Below are positions 1,586 to 62,129 of a stretch of DNA of 64,000 bases, piece after piece. The notes under the pieces were generated by a model. That model made no database searches. It saw only the letters and a program-made list of their open reading frames with translations, and was not told where the DNA came from. The position numbers and the translations under genes were made by a program. Positions within the stretch are counted from its first letter, which is position 1; the number at the start of each line of letters is the position of its first letter. Source of the stretch: Acidobacteriota bacterium (GTDB taxonomy: Bacteria; Acidobacteriota; Terriglobia; Bryobacterales; Bryobacteraceae); the NCBI GenBank assembly GCA_025353165.1, contig JANXRE010000116.1, forward strand, positions 1 to 64,000, written 5' to 3'.

Positions 1586-2488
1586 CTAGTCCGGCGTGGC
1601 GCACGCACTCGTGCGTGCCGCGTCGGCACTCATGCCGACGCTTGGCGTTTCCAGAGGGCTGGACAGCGCCTCCAACTGCATCCCCAACCGATACAACCCG
1701 GCCGGCTCCGGCTCCTCGAGGCGCGGCAAGGCCGCGATCAGCCGTCGTGTATAGGGATGCTCGGGCCGCTGAAGGACTTGGGCGACGGGCCCGGATTCCA
1801 CCACCCCGCCTTCGTGCACGATGCCGATCCGGTGACAGAGACTGGCCGCCGCCACCAGGTCGTGCGTGATTAACAGGATGGATACACCGAACGACTGGTT
1901 CAGCCGCCGGAACAGCCCTAGCACTTCGGACTGCGTGATCAGGTCCAGCGCGCTGGTAGCCTCGTCCGCGATAATCAGCTTCGGACGGTGCAGCACCGCC
2001 ATGGCGATGAGCAGCCGCTGCGCCATCCCGACGCTGAGCTCCCTTGGATATCGCCGCAGGAACGCGTCGTCCGGGGGCAAGCTGACTTCTGCCAGGGTCT
2101 CGAGGATCCGCTCCCGCCCGTCCTCGCGCCCCGTGCGGTGCGCGTGCCAGGCTTCCCGCAACTGCGTCCCTATCCGCAAGCGAGGATTCAGCGCAGCCAG
2201 CGGGCTTTGGAGCACCAGCCCGATCTCCTTCCCGCGAATACTGCGCATCCTCCGTTCGGAGAATCCAAGCAGATCCTCGCCGCCGAAACGGAGCGAACCG
2301 CTGACCGTCACGCGCGCCGGATCCAGCAGCCGCAGCGTGGCCAGCGCGAAGGTGCTCTTGCCGCAGCCGCTCGGGCCCGCCAGGCCGAAGATTTCGCCGG
2401 GCTCCATCTGTAACCGGAAATCTCGCAGAACCGCGCCCCGATGGCGGTACTCCACCCCGATGTCGGCGTCCAGCAGCGGCGAGGCCAT
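1586..2488 (-). CDS. Oligopeptide/dipeptide ABC transporter ATP-binding protein
   Basis: A 300-residue ATPase of the Dpp/Opp/nickel family. Walker A GPSGCGKST (38-46), Q-loop Q94, Walker B LIIADEATSALD, H-loop THD and the oligopeptide C-terminal HPYTRRLIAALP segment are all visible. The ABC signature reads LSVGM (151-155) instead of LSGGM, a substitution in a normally invariant glycine position. Only one ATPase gene is present although the family usually uses two (DppD plus DppF). An alternative ATG lies one codon upstream at 2491. The last 14 or so residues, ending SACATPD, are encoded by a dispersed palindromic repeat (1595-1641). Last gene of the importer operon. Confidence 0.85.
   Translation of the reverse strand: MASPLLDADIGVEYRHRGAVLRDFRLQMEPGEIFGLAGPSGCGKSTFALATLRLLDPARVTVSGSLRFGGEDLLGFSERRMRSIRGKEIGLVLQSPLAALNPRLRIGTQLREAWHAHRTGREDGRERILETLAEVSLPPDDAFLRRYPRELSVGMAQRLLIAMAVLHRPKLIIADEATSALDLITQSEVLGLFRRLNQSFGVSILLITHDLVAAASLCHRIGIVHEGGVVESGPVAQVLQRPEHPYTRRLIAALPRLEEPEPAGLYRLGMQLEALSSPLETPSVGMSADAARTSACATPD
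1595..1641 (-). repeat. REP-like double-palindrome element, copy 1
   Basis: Two adjacent hairpins: GGCGCACGCA/TGCGTGCC and GTCGGCA/TGCCGAC. The same design recurs at 22447-22493 and 42648-42694. Here it forms the 3' end of the ABC ATPase reading frame. Confidence 0.8.
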
Positions 2489-2495
2489 CATGCGT

Positions 2496-4133
2496 TCACC
2501 GCGACGCTGTCTTCGTTCTCGCGTCGAGATAAATTCGCTCCGCATTCCACAGCGTTTGCGGCCGCAATACGGAGGCGTCGACATTGCGGACGCCCGGAGC
2601 CACGGCCACGGCGGCATTCGGGTAGACCAGGTAAATGAAAGGAGCCTGCTCCACGACAATCTGCTGCACCCGGTCGAAGGCCGCCTTCCTCGTCTTGTTT
2701 GTGGGGTCGAGCGCGGAGGCCTGCTGCTGCATTAACCGGTCCAGTTCGGCTTCCCAATCGGTCGCCGGCTTCTTCTGACTCGGGTTCCACTGATGCTGTC
2801 CCGCGGAACTGGGCCAGACATTCATCTGTTCGTTGGGGTCGAGTTCGCTGGCCACCATCCCCAGCAGGCAGGCCTCGTAATCGAAGCTCTGCGTAATCCG
2901 GTCGATCAGAGACGGGAAATCGAGAGCCGCCACCGACACCCGGATGCCGGTTGCCAGGAGATCCTGTTGGATCATCGCCGCCATGCGCTGCCGGGATTGG
3001 TTCCCGGAGTTCGTTACGATGGTGAACTGCACGGGATTGCCGGACGGGTCGTACAGCCACTGGCCGCGCATCCGGAAGCCGGCGTGCACCAGCCGGCTCA
3101 GAGCCGCTTTTGCGTCCGCCGGTGCCGGCCGCAGCGCCGCGTTATGCCAGAACAGATTGGCCGGGGACACCGGGCCGCTCGCCGGGGTAGCCAGCCCTTT
3201 ATACACCACCCGCGCGATGTCGTCGCGGTGGATGGCCTGCGAAACAGCGAGCCGAAAATCGCGCGACTGGAACCATTGTTTTTTGTGCGCCGGGACCGGG
3301 CCCCCGGGCGCCTGATTGAACCACATCTGCTCGGAATCGAGCGACACGCCCAGTTGGCGAACGGTCGACGGCATCTCGGCTTTCAGCTTCTCGAACGAGT
3401 CGGGACTCAGGTTATTGATGAGGTCGAAATCGCCGCTTCGAAAGCGCAGCAATTCGAAATCGCGGTTGCGCTGAATCTCCAGCCGAATGGAATCCAGGTA
3501 CGGCAGTTGCCGGCCCTCGGCATCGCGCTTCCAATAGCGCGGGTTTCGCCCCAGCAACAGATACGCGCCGGCCTTCTGCCCGGCGATCAGGAACGGGCCC
3601 AGCGAGGCCTTGTCTTTCTGCGCCGAGCGCGCCGAAAGGATCGGTACTCCATCCCACAGGAGCGCGAATCCGACCCGCGGCGCCGGCAGGACCAGGGTCA
3701 CGGCGTCGGCCCGATCGGCCCGGCAAACCAGTTTGCCTTTTTCAAAACGGATGGCGTCGGCGATCATCGATTCGGCGCCCGGTTCCAGGATCCGGTCGAT
3801 GGTGTAGCAGACGTCCTGGGCGGAGAACGGCGTCCCGTCCGAGAAGGTGACGCCGTTCCGCAATCGGAAGGAGATGCGGCGTCCGCCCTCGCCGACCTTC
3901 CACGAGGCCGCTAACTCCGGCTCCAGCGTCTGGGTCGCGCGATTCAGGCGAATCAGCACGCCGGTCGTGAGATAGCGGACCAGCGACGACGGTTCGTCGG
4001 AGGCCAGCAATGGATTCAAGGTCTTCGGCTCCGCCTGGATAGCGAGCCGCAACTGCCCCCCCATCCGCGGCGATTCCGCGGACCACGCGGTGAGCGCCGC
4101 GCCGGCGGCAAGCCACAGAACAAGTTGTTTCAT
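2496..4133 (-). CDS. Peptide/nickel-type ABC transporter substrate-binding protein
   Basis: A 545-residue SBP_bac_5 family periplasmic binding protein. The N-terminus MKQLVLWLAAGAALTAWSA is a Sec signal peptide; there is no lipobox cysteine. Family hallmarks follow: AEPKTLNPLLASDEPSS, an LEPELAASWKV segment and the FRLRNGVTFSDGTPFSAQDV block. The start at 4133 is favoured because its ATG overlaps the TGA of the upstream permease (ATGA at 4130-4133); longer versions would run over the permease gene. The ligand cannot be read from sequence, though oligopeptides are the usual substrate. Third gene of a permease-permease-SBP-ATPase operon. Confidence 0.9.
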   Translation of the reverse strand: MKQLVLWLAAGAALTAWSAESPRMGGQLRLAIQAEPKTLNPLLASDEPSSLVRYLTTGVLIRLNRATQTLEPELAASWKVGEGGRRISFRLRNGVTFSDGTPFSAQDVCYTIDRILEPGAESMIADAIRFEKGKLVCRADRADAVTLVLPAPRVGFALLWDGVPILSARSAQKDKASLGPFLIAGQKAGAYLLLGRNPRYWKRDAEGRQLPYLDSIRLEIQRNRDFELLRFRSGDFDLINNLSPDSFEKLKAEMPSTVRQLGVSLDSEQMWFNQAPGGPVPAHKKQWFQSRDFRLAVSQAIHRDDIARVVYKGLATPASGPVSPANLFWHNAALRPAPADAKAALSRLVHAGFRMRGQWLYDPSGNPVQFTIVTNSGNQSRQRMAAMIQQDLLATGIRVSVAALDFPSLIDRITQSFDYEACLLGMVASELDPNEQMNVWPSSAGQHQWNPSQKKPATDWEAELDRLMQQQASALDPTNKTRKAAFDRVQQIVVEQAPFIYLVYPNAAVAVAPGVRNVDASVLRPQTLWNAERIYLDARTKTASR

Positions 4134-4939
4134 TGGGAATACTCCGGGCCGAACAGGACGTGGACCGCCAGAACCGTCATCAGCAGCAGGGCCACGGGCG
4201 CCAGCAGCCAGCAGTGAGCCAGTAGATTGGCGGATCCGGTAACCTGCCCTTCCAGGTCTCGCAGCAGCGATCCCCAGCTCGGCAGTGGTTCGGCGACGCC
4301 CAGCCCCAGCATCCCCAGGTTGGCCTCCGCCAGTATGAAAACCGGAATCGAGGTCCAGAACTGGGCCGACAATACCGGCTTCAGGTTGGGGAGAACATGC
4401 ACCAGCAGCACGCGCGTCCGCGGCAGTCCGCGGCTGAGCGCAGCCAGCACATAATCCGCCGACAGGATCTCGCGGGCGGCCGTCCGGATGACTCGCGCCG
4501 GCCCCGCCCATCCGAGGATCCCGAGCAAGGCAAACGTAAGACAAACCGAGGCGGCGGGCGAAACGTCCAGCGGTAGAAGAGCCCGCACGGTAAGCAGGAG
4601 GAACATCCAGGGCAAGCTCATCGTGAGATCGAAAGCGCCGAGGAAGGCCATCTCGGGAACGCCGCGCGCCAGCGCCGCCGCCCCGCCCGCGGCCGTTGCC
4701 ACCGCCACCGCCAGCGCCGCCGCGGCGGGGGCCAGCAGGAGGGAAGTCCGGCTGCCATACAGCAGGCGGGAGAGCCGGTCCCGGCCCAACTCGTCCGTCC
4801 CCAGCCGGAACGTCCGCGAGGGCGCGGCGTTGGGGGAATCGCGGAATTGCCGGGCGTAGGAGGAAGGCGCGAGGAGCGGAGCGCCAAGCGCGCTCAGGAA
4901 CACCGCTGCCAGGAATACGGCGCACAACGCCCGGATCAT
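4130..4939 (-). CDS. ABC transporter permease, DppC-like
   Basis: A 269-residue inner-membrane permease. It begins with a TM helix, then the OppC-type N-terminal segment with LGTDELGRDRLSRLLYGSR, several TM helices, and the cytoplasmic EAA-loop region around AALSRGLPRTRVLLVHVLPN, which docks onto the ATPase. Start at 4939 overlaps the TGA of the preceding permease by ATGA, which decides it over longer in-frame starts. Confidence 0.9.
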   Translation of the reverse strand: MIRALCAVFLAAVFLSALGAPLLAPSSYARQFRDSPNAAPSRTFRLGTDELGRDRLSRLLYGSRTSLLLAPAAAALAVAVATAAGGAAALARGVPEMAFLGAFDLTMSLPWMFLLLTVRALLPLDVSPAASVCLTFALLGILGWAGPARVIRTAAREILSADYVLAALSRGLPRTRVLLVHVLPNLKPVLSAQFWTSIPVFILAEANLGMLGLGVAEPLPSWGSLLRDLEGQVTGSANLLAHCWLLAPVALLLMTVLAVHVLFGPEYSQ

Positions 4940-5817
4940 GCCGCACCCGCCGCATCCCGATGGACGCGCGCGCCGGACAGGTCCGCCAACAGATTGGCCG
5001 CTGTAACCGCGAGGCTCATTAGAAAGGTGATGGTCACCAGCAGCGGCAGGTCCCGGCCCAACGCCGCTTGCCACGCCAGTTGCCCCAGCCCCGGGACATC
5101 CAAGACCATTTCCATCGGGATCGTGGCGCTCAACGCGAGGCTGACGGAGACGCCGGCCAGTGACAGCAATTGCGGTCCGCAGGCCGGCAGAACGTGCCGC
5201 GCCAGGATCCAACGCGCACGGACGCCGCGGGCGCGCGCGGCTTGCACGTGCGCGGTCTGGTAGGCTTCCCGAAGTATATTGAGCGCGAAGTATACGATCC
5301 GCGGGCACAGCGCCAGCGCGACCGCCAGGCCGCTGGCGAGCGCTCCCCGGGCGCCCAGGCAGAACAGAAGCAGCGCCGTCACCGCCGCCGGAAGACACTG
5401 CAGCAGCGCTGCCGGCGCGACGGCGCCGGCGGCCGCCAGGCGCCAGCGCGTCCGGACGGCGGCTAAAGCCATCGCCAGTCCGGCCATCCAGCCCACGCCC
5501 AATCCCGTCAGCACCCCAAACGCGGTGGGTATCGCCCGCTCGCGCAGCAGCTCCGCCACCGGCTTGTGGAACAGGCTGGACTCGCCCAAATCGCCCTGCG
5601 CGCAGCGTTTGAGAAACCGGCCGTAGAACGCAAGGACATCCCCGTTTACCTTGCGCGCGTCCCGCAGCCGCTGGCGGCTTTCCTCGCTCCGGCGGGCATC
5701 CAGTTGCTCCTCATCCACCTCGAATCCCGGGGCCAACCGGACCAGCACGGCGCACAGCAGTCCTCCCAGCAGGGCGGTGGCCGCCAGACGCCGGACGAGG
5801 TGTAGCGCTCGGATCAT
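4936..5817 (-). CDS. ABC transporter permease, DppB-like
   Basis: A 293-residue permease with an N-terminal TM anchor (MIRALHLVRRLAATALLGG), a periplasmic stretch, and a C-terminal six-helix core with the EAA-type ARARGVRARWILARHVLPA loop. It should pair with the downstream DppC-like subunit. The start at 5817 (MIRALHL) is preferred because it begins directly at the first TM helix; an alternative ATG at 5904 would add 29 residues. No strong Shine-Dalgarno is visible at 5817. First gene of the importer operon; it diverges from the subtilase gene at 5956. Confidence 0.85.
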   Translation of the reverse strand: MIRALHLVRRLAATALLGGLLCAVLVRLAPGFEVDEEQLDARRSEESRQRLRDARKVNGDVLAFYGRFLKRCAQGDLGESSLFHKPVAELLRERAIPTAFGVLTGLGVGWMAGLAMALAAVRTRWRLAAAGAVAPAALLQCLPAAVTALLLFCLGARGALASGLAVALALCPRIVYFALNILREAYQTAHVQAARARGVRARWILARHVLPACGPQLLSLAGVSVSLALSATIPMEMVLDVPGLGQLAWQAALGRDLPLLVTITFLMSLAVTAANLLADLSGARVHRDAAGAA

Positions 5818-10506: not shown

Positions 10507-12297
10507 GAAGACAAAGCTCAACCCACCGCGCACGGATCGCGGCGAGTTCGTCAGCAGCAGCGACCGTCCGCCTGAGCTGAACGGCAAATACCCCTGGGCC
10601 AGCGCGTTCCTGACCTCGCCCACCGCCTCGAAGCGTCCCGGCAATCCACCCGACGGAATTGGCTGGCGAATCGACAGGTTCAAGCCCGGCTCTGGCCCCG
10701 TCATCTGCGTCAGGGAAATCCGCGCCGGCATCAACGTGCCTGTATCCATCCACCCGTAACTGGCGATGAACCGCGTTCCCGCCTTGGGTGCCGTACCGGA
10801 AAGCCGCGTCGTCGCCCAATTCCGGCCACTCATCCGCATAGAAGACCGCAGTCCGTCCCCGGGGTCGCCCCCCGTCAGGTTCTGTTGAACGGTGGTGAGC
10901 GCGCCCGTCCGGCCATATGCCAGCGAAACGTCCAGCCTCTCCGCGAAGACCTGGCTGACCGATGCGAGATAGCCCCAGCGATAGAAAGTGCCCGCGTCGA
11001 AAACCGAACTGCGCGATCCCAAGTCCGGCAGCACGTCCGTCATTCCCGCGAGACCCGGATCGCCGGCTATCGTCAGGATGGCGTCCTTCAAGTGCTCGCG
11101 ATAGGCGCCGAAACTATAGGTCCGCGAACCGGCAACCTTTTTATATCCGATCTCCATCGAATCGCTGCGTTGCACGCGCGGATGGCCGTCGCGCAAGGAA
11201 ACCAGCGGCAGTGTCGCGAGCGCGGCCAGATCCTGGTTCAACTCCTGCTCGTGAATGACGCGGCGCTCCGTGGGGCGCTGCGCGAGTTCCACCGGAGGCG
11301 CGCCGGCGCTGTAGGCCAATTGCAACAGCCCGCCCCGGCCCAGGTCGAGACTCAGCCGAGCGAACGGACTCAGCGTGTTCAGTTTCTCGATCATGGAAAC
11401 CGTGTCCAGCGAAATTCCGTAGTCCAGCCGCAGGTTATCTAAAATCTGCGCTTTGTCCGCCAGCGTTGCCGATATGGTGCGCAGCGCGGGTACGCCATCC
11501 GTCGTCTCGAACCCGTTTCGCGACGGCAGGTAGACCTGCCGCATGGTGACGGTAATCTCGGGCGTCGCCAGCGAATCGCCATTTCGGCTGTAGGTGGCCC
11601 GGAACCCGGCCGTGGGCAATCCGGCATGGGCGGAATATCCGACATTCCCGCTCACCTGCACCTGGTTCGATCCGAACAGCGAGGTCACCAGAGCGAAAGC
11701 CGTGCCCAGATCGGGCTGCGCTCCGGCACCGGAGTACCCGCCATCGCCGGCCAACACGCGAAACACGCCGCGCGTGTCCGAGAACACGCTGGAGCGGGAT
11801 GCCTTCTCGCGCGGCTCGCGATAGATCACATCGCGGAAGCGAAGCACCGGCCGCGTCGATTGCGACGACCGCAGCACCCACTTCCAGTCGTCGCTCATCA
11901 GCGCGCCTTGCGGCGGCGCGGTGTACACCAGTTCGATGGAGCTGAGCACGCCCGCGAGATTGATGGTGAGCAGGCTTTGCAGTCCGGGCGTGACTCCGAT
12001 GTTCTTCTTCAGCGCCGGAACGAAGCTGGCCAGCGTCACGCGGACGGAGTAGACATCGGGAAGAAGCGAGTCGAACACGAACGACCCTTTTTCATTCGTC
12101 AGCTCTTGCCGCAGCACTCGGTCGTAGCGATTGAACAGGATGACGGTGGCGCCCATCTGGGCTACGCCATCGGGGTTTTGTACTGCGCCGGCGATGCTGC
12201 CCGTAAGGCGCGCGGAAGTCGCAGCTATAGCAGCAGGAGCCAAGCTCAGCAGCCCGGCGATCCAGATGCCTGCGATCCTAAGACCACAATGCGTCAC
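10504..12297 (-). CDS. Outer-membrane beta-barrel protein with carboxypeptidase-regulatory domain
   Basis: A 597-residue protein with a signal peptide, then a carboxypeptidase-regulatory-like (SdrD/Cna-type) domain at about 30-110 (GSIAGAVQNPDGVAQMGATV, YSVRVTLASFVP). A long beta-strand-rich region follows, ending in an aromatic residue (SVRGGLSFVF), as expected for an outer-membrane barrel. This is the layout of the expanded TonB-receptor-like proteins of Acidobacteriota. At under 600 residues it is shorter than typical members, and no plug domain is obvious. The GWxTD gene lies 12 bp upstream, so the two are likely one transcript. Confidence 0.75.
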   Translation of the reverse strand: MTHCGLRIAGIWIAGLLSLAPAAIAATSARLTGSIAGAVQNPDGVAQMGATVILFNRYDRVLRQELTNEKGSFVFDSLLPDVYSVRVTLASFVPALKKNIGVTPGLQSLLTINLAGVLSSIELVYTAPPQGALMSDDWKWVLRSSQSTRPVLRFRDVIYREPREKASRSSVFSDTRGVFRVLAGDGGYSGAGAQPDLGTAFALVTSLFGSNQVQVSGNVGYSAHAGLPTAGFRATYSRNGDSLATPEITVTMRQVYLPSRNGFETTDGVPALRTISATLADKAQILDNLRLDYGISLDTVSMIEKLNTLSPFARLSLDLGRGGLLQLAYSAGAPPVELAQRPTERRVIHEQELNQDLAALATLPLVSLRDGHPRVQRSDSMEIGYKKVAGSRTYSFGAYREHLKDAILTIAGDPGLAGMTDVLPDLGSRSSVFDAGTFYRWGYLASVSQVFAERLDVSLAYGRTGALTTVQQNLTGGDPGDGLRSSMRMSGRNWATTRLSGTAPKAGTRFIASYGWMDTGTLMPARISLTQMTGPEPGLNLSIRQPIPSGGLPGRFEAVGEVRNALAQGYLPFSSGGRSLLLTNSPRSVRGGLSFVF

Positions 12298-55885: not shown

Positions 55886-57556
55886 TCAGTTTTGAGCCAG
55901 CACCAGATTGATGCCCTCTAGAACCAGCCGGCCTTCGCGGAGTAGGGCGTCTCGGTACGGTTCTACCGATGCGGTCATATCGTCCGTGACCCGCGCAAAA
56001 CCGAAGAGCCGGCAGACCGCACTGGGCACCTCCTCAGGAACGATGCCGCAGGATGCCTGCACCACGATGAGGATCGCGCCTCGGATCTCCTCCGGCGCCA
56101 CGAATTCAAATTTACGGGATGCCGTCGGCAGTTCGCTTCTGTCGCGCACGGGCGGTCGTTGCATCGCCGGACTCCACAGGAAGTCGTCGCGTTTGACGAA
56201 GAGCCGGCGCCCCACACCCAGCCGGACCGCATCTCCAAAAGCTTGCTGTATCCTGCTTCCGAAGCGCTGGATACCGGCGCCACTGACAACGCGGCGAGCC
56301 GCTTCCGCCCAGTGCACTGGGCTTTCCACGTTCACTACCTCAGCGAGTAGGTTCGCCAGTTGCGAGCGGTCGACCAGGTGCATCTCGACGCCGCCGAGCC
56401 GAAGTCTCACTTGCGCGCATTGGTACGGAGGCACCATCCCACTCTCCGGGCGGGATGGCGGGCCTGGTTGTTCAGGCTGCGGAGTTGGTCGCGTCGGGTC
56501 CGGCTCGCGCACACGCGGAGGCGGCGATACCGGGCCAACAGTTTTCGCCGTCTCGATTGCCTGCACCACTTTTCGCAGCTCCTGATCGGGGTTATGGAAC
56601 CAGTCGGTGGACCAGATGCGGTGGATGCGCCATCCCAATCCTTCCAGCACAGATGACGTCGCGATTCCGGAGCTGATCGTCGAGCAAACGGTCTTCGCTG
56701 TAGTTGGATGAAGCCGGTTGAAATCCATCCCCGGCTAGCAGGGACTGGAGTATCCCGTGACCAAAGAATGGCGTCTGTCGCCGGCCAAGTTTTCGGATCC
56801 AGATCCCGGTACATTAGGAATTTCGCGAAGGAGAAGAACCCAAGGGCTATCGCATCCGTGTCTACCGTCCAACCTGCCCGGCCGATGACGGACCGCTGCA
56901 CTTTTTGGAAATAGTCGTCAACGTCTACGTCATCGGCTTCCGGCAAATCCGGAAATTCCTTGATGCCGAAGCTCTGCTTGAGCTTCTCAGCAAGGGAAAC
57001 ATTCTCGCCCAACTCCTCCCCCGTGTATTTCAGGTGAAAACGGTCGCGCGCGTCGCTCCGCCCGAGTTCCACCGGGATGAGAATCAGCGGCGCTCTCGAG
57101 AACTTGTCGTTATTGTCTTCTTCGCGCCAGGACAGCATGCCCAGCGCAAGATACAGCGTGTTTACGCCTTGCTCCTCCATCGATGTTCGCGCCGCGTGGT
57201 AGGTAGCCAGGAGCCTGCTCTGGAGCTGAGTGGACGGATAAGTGGTCTGCAGACGTGAATCCGAATGCTTGGCCGCGATATCGCGCTCATCCCCTGGTTG
57301 CGCCAGTTGGCCTTCCGCGCGATTTCCGTTTCCAGCCAGTGCTGCCGCGTCGCCTGGCAGAAACGTCACCGTCTTTTCTTCGCGGACCAGAAGCCGGAAT
57401 ATCTCTCGCGGCTTTTCATCGACTACCGCGACGCCCTTTGGCGCGCAAGGGGCGATAGTTCAAGAGTGTGTTGCGGAGTCCGAGATCGAGAAGGTCGCGG
57501 CGGGCGATCTCCAGGGTATCAGGGAGTGCATCGTTGCTAGGTCTGGTGGGCGGCAT
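55886..57556 (-). pseudogene. DUF4011 helicase-nuclease, helicase core deleted
   Basis: From MPPTRPSNDALPDTLEIARR at 57556 the DUF4011 region is readable (DLLDLGLRNTLLNYRPLRAK; EQGVNTLYLALGMLSWREED; RAPLILIPVELGR; GILQSLLAGDGFQPASSNYS), with frame changes near 57450 and 56780. At about 56650 the text passes directly from LLDDQLRNRDVI to LEGLGWRIHRIWSTDWFHNP, i.e. the C-terminal MTES_1575/Vsr-like nuclease and DUF3320 region (to 55886). The whole superfamily-1 helicase between them is absent. Complete members are far longer (typically over 1400 residues). The architecture matches the DUF4011-helicase-Vsr defence protein (Hhe). Confidence 0.75.
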
Positions 57557-57980
57557 CCAATTCCGTGGTACCGACCTGACGATATCAAAGTGATGGCGCT
57601 TTTGGCAGCAAAGCGGTCCCGCTCAAGTCCGTCAACGTTGCGATGTGCGCGATCGCCACTCCGGTCCTCATTCCGTCTAAATTCCGAATGGCGCGCACGG
57701 GGAGGAGAATGGGAGCCCCGGCACTGGGATGCCGGGGCTTCCTCCCTTCGCATCGCGCGAAGGGCTTAGAGGGGCGGGCGACTAGCTGGGACTAGCCGCC
57801 GGATGCAATAAGTCATTGGAGACTTATGAATTACCCTTTCAAAAGCACGTCTCGTGCCAACATTTTTAATTGAACAATCAATGACTTAGGAGAGACGCCG
57901 AGGGGCAAATTGCGCTTCTGTGGGTGAAAGTACTCACCCAACGAGACCCGATTATCGGAAACCGCCGGAGGATCCGGACT
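57557..57980. other. No gene; contains one strong hairpin
   Basis: GCCCCGGCA (57715-57723) and TGCCGGGGC (57730-57738) form a perfect 9-bp stem with a CTGGGA loop, followed by TTCCTCCCTT. It may terminate transcription. Nothing else recognised. Confidence 0.45.
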
Positions 57981-58976
<996 letters not shown>

Positions 58977-59969: not shown

Positions 59970-60080
59970 AATCTCTTTCCCTCCCAGTCAATTTCTTAGC
60001 GACTATATTTCTGGAATTAGCGAATGTATATTTGGAATTTGATATACTCGCCAGCGTAATTCTTGCTGGGAGGCTCAATA

Positions 60081-62129
60081 ATGACTTTTCATTCGGTGCT
60101 TATTCTCGCCGCTTTTGCAGCGATCCTGCCGGTTGCCCGGCCGCAGATGGCTCCACCAGCCCAAGATCGGATCCGCAACTGGTCCACGCCGCCCTATTGG
60201 CAGGCGCCCATTGTGTCCGATGGGCCGTCGCATGAGGGAAAGGGAGGCGTTTCCGCCAAAGCCGCAGCGAAGAAAGCGCCGGTGATTGCCGCGACTCCTG
60301 CGGTATTCATAGCCGTCACTCCCTGCCGCCTGGCCGATACCCGTTCGACTCAGAGTTTCACGGGAGCGTGGGGACCGCCCGCGCTCAACGCATCCGATCC
60401 CCGGAACTTCGATATCCCGACGAATCCGACTTGTGGCATTCCCTCCACGGCGCTGGCTTACTCGCTCAACTTTACGGTCGTGCCGACCGGGCCGGTGTCT
60501 TACTTCAGTGCGTGGCCGGAGGGCCAAGCTTATCCCTATGTCTCGACCCTGAATAGTCCAAATGGCGAAATTATCGCGAACGCTTCCATAACGCCTGCGG
60601 GAACGAACGGCGGGATCACCGTAATCGCCGGCGATCCGACGGACCTGATCATCGACATCAATGGGTATTACGCGATCGGGCCGACGGGACCGCAGGGGCC
60701 AGTGGGCCCAATGGGTCCGATCGGGTTGACAGGCCCGCAGGGCGTCACAGGTGCAACTGGAGGGCAGGGAACGCCGGGCGCCACGGGTGCAATCGGACCG
60801 CAGGGCGTCCCAGGCGCGACAGGTGCAATCGGACCGCAAGGCGTCTCAGGCGCGACAGGCGCAACCGGAGTGCAGGGCCCCACGGGCGCAATCGGACCGG
60901 CAGGGTTGACGGGTCCAGCGGGGGCAATCGGATCGACGGGGCTGACGGGCGCGGCTGGCCCAATCGGACCGCAAGGGGTGCCGGGCGCAACGGGCGCAAC
61001 CGGATCGACGGGGCTGACCGGCGCGGCTGGCCCAATCGGACCGACTGGGCTGACGGGCGCGACGGGCACCACGGGTGCCATCGGGCCGCAGGGGCTGGCG
61101 GGCACCACGGGCGCGGCTGGCCCAATCGGACCGACCGGGCTGACGGGCGCGACAGGTCCAACCGGACCGCTAGGATTGACGGGGCCGCAAGGTGGGATTG
61201 GGCCGCAAGGGATCGCCGGTCTGACGGGTCCGCAGGGAGTTGCGGGACCTGCCGGCCCAAATACGCTGAACATCGCGCTGAAGAAGTGGTTCCCGGGCTA
61301 CAGGAGCGCCAACGTCTTTGGAGTGGGAGCGAGTCCCTTCGGCGTGGTCTTCGATGGAGCCAACATTTGGGTTTCGAACGGCAGTGGCGCCGTTAACAAG
61401 CTGCTGGCCGCGGACGGTTCGGTTGCGGGCAACGTTACCGCCGGCAACGGGGCGGCCGGTATGGCCTTCGACGGCGCTAAGGTCTGGGTGGCGAATTTCA
61501 CCGACAACACCGTAACCGTACTGCGGGCCGGAAGCGGCGCCGTCATCACCACGGTGAATGTGGGAACCGGGCCGGTTGGAGTGGCGCTCGATGGAACCAA
61601 CGTGTGGGTGGCGAATCAGGGCAGCAACAATTTGACCCAGTTGCGCGCCAGCGACGCATCGGTCCTCAACACGTTTTCAGTGAGTCCCGGCTTGGGGCCA
61701 ACGGGCGTGGCGTTCGATGGCGTCAGTCTCTGGATAACGAATCAAGGAACCAACAACGTCACCAAGATGAGCGTCGCCGGTGTTGTCGAGGGCACGTTCG
61801 CCGCCGGTACTTCGCCGGCAGACATCGTCTTCGATGGCGCCAACGTCTGGGTGGCGAACAACGGAAGTGGCAACGTGACCGAACTGCGCGTCAGCGACGG
61901 CTTTGTCGTCGGCACGTTCCCCGCGGGAAACGGCCCCTCGGGCATCGGCTTCGATGGGACCAACATCTGGGTGTCGAACCACACGGACGGAACCGTCACC
62001 AAACTCCGGGCCAGTGACGGGTCCAACCTGGGCCTCTTCACCGTGGGACTAGGGCCCCGGGGCGTGGCCTTCGATGGCGCCAACATTTGGGTGGCGAACC
62101 AGACCGACGGCACGTTGAGCAAGCTCTAA
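60081..62129 (+). CDS. Secreted protein with collagen-like and beta-propeller regions
   Basis: A 682-residue surface protein. After a signal peptide, an N-terminal domain of a type common in Acidobacteriota has [31 protein letters not shown] and [13 protein letters not shown]. Residues of about 195-390 form a collagen-like run of Gly-X-Y triplets ([19 protein letters not shown] style). From about 415 seven or eight YVTN/NHL-like blades repeat the text [18 protein letters not shown], making a beta-propeller. GGGAGG precedes ATG 60081. A fibrous stalk topped by a propeller is an inference. Confidence 0.88.

Follow-up and report, generated by a model that had tools for sequence, protein, structure and literature searches.

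A probable recent pseudogene of a single-gene DUF4011-helicase-nuclease defence system, lacking its helicase motor, in a Bryobacteraceae contig

Related systems and an intact homologue

The closest described relatives of the locus are large single-gene proteins in which DUF4011, an SF1 helicase motor with Walker A and the further helicase motifs, a complete MTES_1575/Vsr-like nuclease with the motif ECDGxxYH and a C-terminal DUF3320 (winged helix) are read in a single frame of about 1550–2000 aa; these are the features of PDC-S37, a family that PADLOC lists as a phage-defence candidate and to which the NCBIfam family NF058533 (anti-phage protein ProA) stands near. The MTES_1575-like giants, with the layout HEPN-transglutaminase-SF1 helicase-Vsr-wHTH (PMC3710099), have the order of helicase, Vsr-type nuclease and DUF3320/wHTH in common with this gene type. 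A search of the open literature gave few papers naming DUF4011 or MTES_1575 and none on ProA or PDC-S37. The ARMADA/YprA paper was set aside as a precedent, as it concerns another helicase family.

An uninterrupted homologue of 1591 aa was found by a public genome scan on a contig of a "Candidatus Solibacter" metagenome-assembled genome (L024:6017–10789) and served as reference. Pfam places DUF4011 at residues 22–192, the helicase pieces AAA_11 at 306–371 (this being the better of its two stretches) and AAA_12 at 1020–1217, with motifs spread over 306–1217, the MTES_1575 nuclease at 1264–1361 and DUF3320 at 1418–1464. ECDGxxYH lies at residue 1307 and can be made out in the majority of the listed full-length relatives. 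Neither HEPN nor transglutaminase was found by Pfam in this protein, in which it differs from the giants. It scores 1464 bits against NF058533 (cut-off 1500) over positions 356–1903 of 1903, lacking the first 355, and 1007 bits against Hhe (NF042953; cut-off 2000 bits). From this domain content, the helicase of the intact protein would most likely translocate on invading DNA, the Vsr-like nuclease would most likely cut it and DUF3320/wHTH would most likely serve DNA contact; a similar role has been proposed for the related giant proteins (PMC3710099). Near the homologue, at L024 positions 770–1510, 2454–5165 and 10818–12213, are genes that by eye resemble a phage-type integrase, TniQ and a nucleotidyltransferase/XRE pair, surroundings that suggest a mobile defence island, the genes being named by eye.

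Anatomy of the locus and its lesions

The 64,000-nt stretch analysed here (the window) carries, on the minus strand at 55886–57556, a locus whose positions 57556–55889 match both ends, and only both ends, of the intact reference protein, with about 70–76% identity in the retained parts. Lesions were mapped by tblastn of the 1591-aa reference on the window. The native ATG at 57556 is kept and is followed in a first frame (57434–57556) by the first 41 reference codons with the start of DUF4011 (residues 1–41, 76% identity); near 57440 a +1 frameshift leads into a second frame (56764–57450) with the main DUF4011 segment (residues 36–264, 76% identity; PF13195, E 8.1e-32). A second frameshift (56763–56765), where a DNA alignment shows a short T run to be one T longer than in the reference, opens a third frame (56652–56768; residues 263–301, 69% identity), which runs to the edge of a deletion. 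At the joint (56652–56659) about 3.08 kb are absent relative to the reference, corresponding to residues 302–1328 (1027 residues), and the first frame is resumed in the C-terminal remnant (55886–56653), which holds the end of the nuclease, the linker, DUF3320 and the native stop ending at 55886 (residues 1329–1580 at 56653–55895, 70% identity). Reference residues 1–301 and 1329–1580 are thus retained in four frame segments instead of one frame, and the homologous segments of the remnant are free of premature stop codons.

The deletion comprises the whole SF1 helicase and nuclease residues 1264–1328. This bears out the main claims of the first-pass annotation, which from the letters and open reading frames had described a DUF4011-helicase-Vsr-like-DUF3320 gene within the same limits, its entire motor removed and DUF4011 joined directly to the C-terminal region at about 56650 by one clean internal deletion, with two small indels (now two 1-nt frameshifts) in addition. 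Its further statement that two domains from a known anti-phage layout survive was upheld for DUF4011 and DUF3320 and not for the Vsr-like nuclease, which is without ECDGxxYH, the surviving pieces moreover lying in different frames. As the deletion took about two-thirds of the length of the nuclease domain together with this motif, the nuclease is decapitated and no working nuclease domain remains.

The family matches of the remnant are far above chance. The open frame at 56407–57369 (320 aa) gave the Pfam DUF4011 match (PF13195) cited above, and that at 55886–56728 (280 aa) matched DUF3320 (PF11784, E 8e-13) and, over the last 39 positions only (58–96 of 96), MTES_1575 (PF18741, E 1.9e-10). 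Against PDC-S37 (1550 positions), the window pieces matched only positions 58–252 (E 1.2e-69) and 1306–1540 (E 4.1e-58); both ends are therefore shared with this family, DUF4011 being present though twice frameshifted, whereas positions 253–1305 (helicase and start of the nuclease) are lacking and the frame is broken in three places. NF058533 was matched at 431–603 and 1669–1903, far under its cut-off, and Hhe (NF042953; PADLOC Hhe) matched the DUF4011 and nuclease ends weakly, with scores far lower than those of PDC-S37 and ProA. Relative to the giants, the window gene lacks the helicase and the nuclease core.

On this evidence the locus is, with high probability, a pseudogene, inactivated recently, of a single-gene anti-phage helicase-nuclease (PDC-S37, near ProA and related to Hhe); the intact ancestor would, by its family label, have been a putative defence protein. 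Through the deletion codon 301 runs straight into codon 1329, in another frame, and two 1-nt insertions shift the frame of the N-terminal part; a ribosome starting at the native ATG would meet a stop after about 46 codons. With its pieces in different frames the locus cannot yield one product; this copy can supply neither ATPase nor nuclease activity, and the remnant is presumed functionless.

Origin and age of the break

Short repeats at the deletion edges, for which the first-pass annotation had proposed to look, did not exceed chance. In the reference, both edges contain the 7-mer ATCGCGA, but chance alone gives about 0.4 such matches for a pair of 80-nt stretches; the joint is ambiguous by about 2–7 nt only, microhomology amounts to a few bases, and none of the direct repeats of 12 nt or more in the region flanks the joint. 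The deletion would probably have arisen by illegitimate end joining or slippage, with microhomology of a few bases at most. For the same reason, a repeat-driven collapse during assembly is not expected.

It was nevertheless considered whether the genome carries the full gene, the deletion and/or the frameshifts being errors of assembly or of strain mixture. Such a reading would agree with an assembly in 200 contigs, with frameshifts of single bases and with retained segments that are under normal purifying selection and show no lineage acceleration. Against this, the missing segment (1025 aa), used as a query, had no match at E ≤ 1e-3 elsewhere in the 98.4% complete assembly, while the same query gave strong matches in two positive controls (E = 0 in G058; 2e-112 in the same-genus genome G001), so the search itself works. 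In addition, no repeat beside the joint is of a length that could misdirect assembly, and one gene has three separate lesions, two of them frameshifts independent of the joint, while its neighbours GlnD, GlnK, AmtB and MoxR are intact. Taken together, an artefact of this kind was judged unlikely.

Selection was assessed on the retained codons relative to the reference, which gave pN of 0.146 and 0.164 against pS of 0.682 and 0.622. When L083 served as outgroup, the window had 13 amino-acid changes specific to its lineage and the reference 8 in the N-terminal part, and 13 and 17, respectively, in the C-terminal part (26 and 25 in total). The retained halves therefore show purifying selection and the window lineage is not accelerated; the gene was selected until recently and, compared with the split from the reference, the break is young. 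The lack of stops and of excess changes would fit a very recent break, and also an assembly error or residual selection; of the first two, the recent break is the likelier, and the loss then happened recently enough that the surviving parts of the gene still look selected.

Recurrence among relatives and genomic surroundings

In the order, 35 of 257 genomes have DUF4011 and 27 have DUF3320, and intact relatives of the gene occur in a minority. In 21 other loci with both domains on one contig, their spacing (read from tables) was 4.08–7.6 kb, as compared with about 1.05 kb in the window, and 20 of these 21 consist of one open frame of 1553–2037 aa. The exception, and only other split copy, is that of G258, where the gene (L098; G258:C1:1088000–1099000) is divided into frames of 847 and 727 aa by two inserted open frames; to judge by sequence resemblance, one looks like a reverse transcriptase of group II intron type and the other like a transposase. 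This is an independent broken copy, so that decay of the gene has occurred elsewhere in the bacterial family as well. The helicase-less layout is unique to the window among the 257 genomes; since all 21 other linked loci are long-spaced and none has the short spacing, a subfamily of helicase-less forms was ruled out.

The same comparison bears on whether the DUF4011 and the C-terminal DUF3320/wHTH fragments act as two small proteins, for example as a decoy, regulator or dominant-negative partner. The 320-aa and 280-aa open frames keep recognisable domains, the latter is translatable in principle, and pN is well under pS in the retained codons; low pN is, however, accounted for by selection before the break, the last part of the 320-aa frame is read out of frame, and the start of the 280-aa frame is likewise out of frame, with no nuclease motif in what follows. 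A reduced form is seen in none of the 21 other linked loci, and the genome encodes no relative of the missing part that could serve as a partner helicase. A functional reduced form is accordingly very improbable, and the remnant is most likely an ordinary dead gene rather than a new compact defence protein. Taken alone the locus matters little, as one example of the loss of a large, patchily distributed single-gene defence system; it serves as a warning that hits to DUF4011 and DUF3320 alone would falsely call a defence system in this genome.

The gene order on the minus strand is MoxR, remnant, AmtB, GlnK, GlnD. The adjacency to MoxR, to which the first-pass annotation had pointed, says nothing on defence: MoxR is present at high identity in 56 of the 61 related genomes searched and belongs to the core genes of the bacterial family, so that its position next to the remnant is incidental, and MoxR was discarded as a defence partner. 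In several other genera among the relatives examined, MoxR heads an apparent MoxR-DUF58-VWA operon. The MoxR gene of the window (57981–58976) is parted from these usual DUF58/VWA partners, the closest DUF58 relative in this genome lying on another contig (C48). In the same-genus genome G001, too, MoxR has no DUF58 gene after it; the cytochrome c neighbour is kept, an unrelated transporter-like gene lies downstream, and AmtB and MoxR are on different contigs. By these sequence comparisons the remnant occupies a spot that is variable within the genus, as would be expected of a defence gene gained by horizontal transfer.

The 381-nt gap that separates the remnant from MoxR occurs only once in the genome, and the idea that it holds a mobile element or repeat was therefore rejected. 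This gap contains, at 57716–57737, a perfect inverted repeat with 8-bp arms (CCCCGGCA-N6-TGCCGGGG), the sole such match in the window and possibly a terminator-type hairpin. Farther along, 60063–62129 encodes a probable surface protein of 688 aa, in which collagen-like GxxGxx repeats (PF01391, E 1.4e-27) precede beta-propeller-like repeats (YVTN-like by eye).
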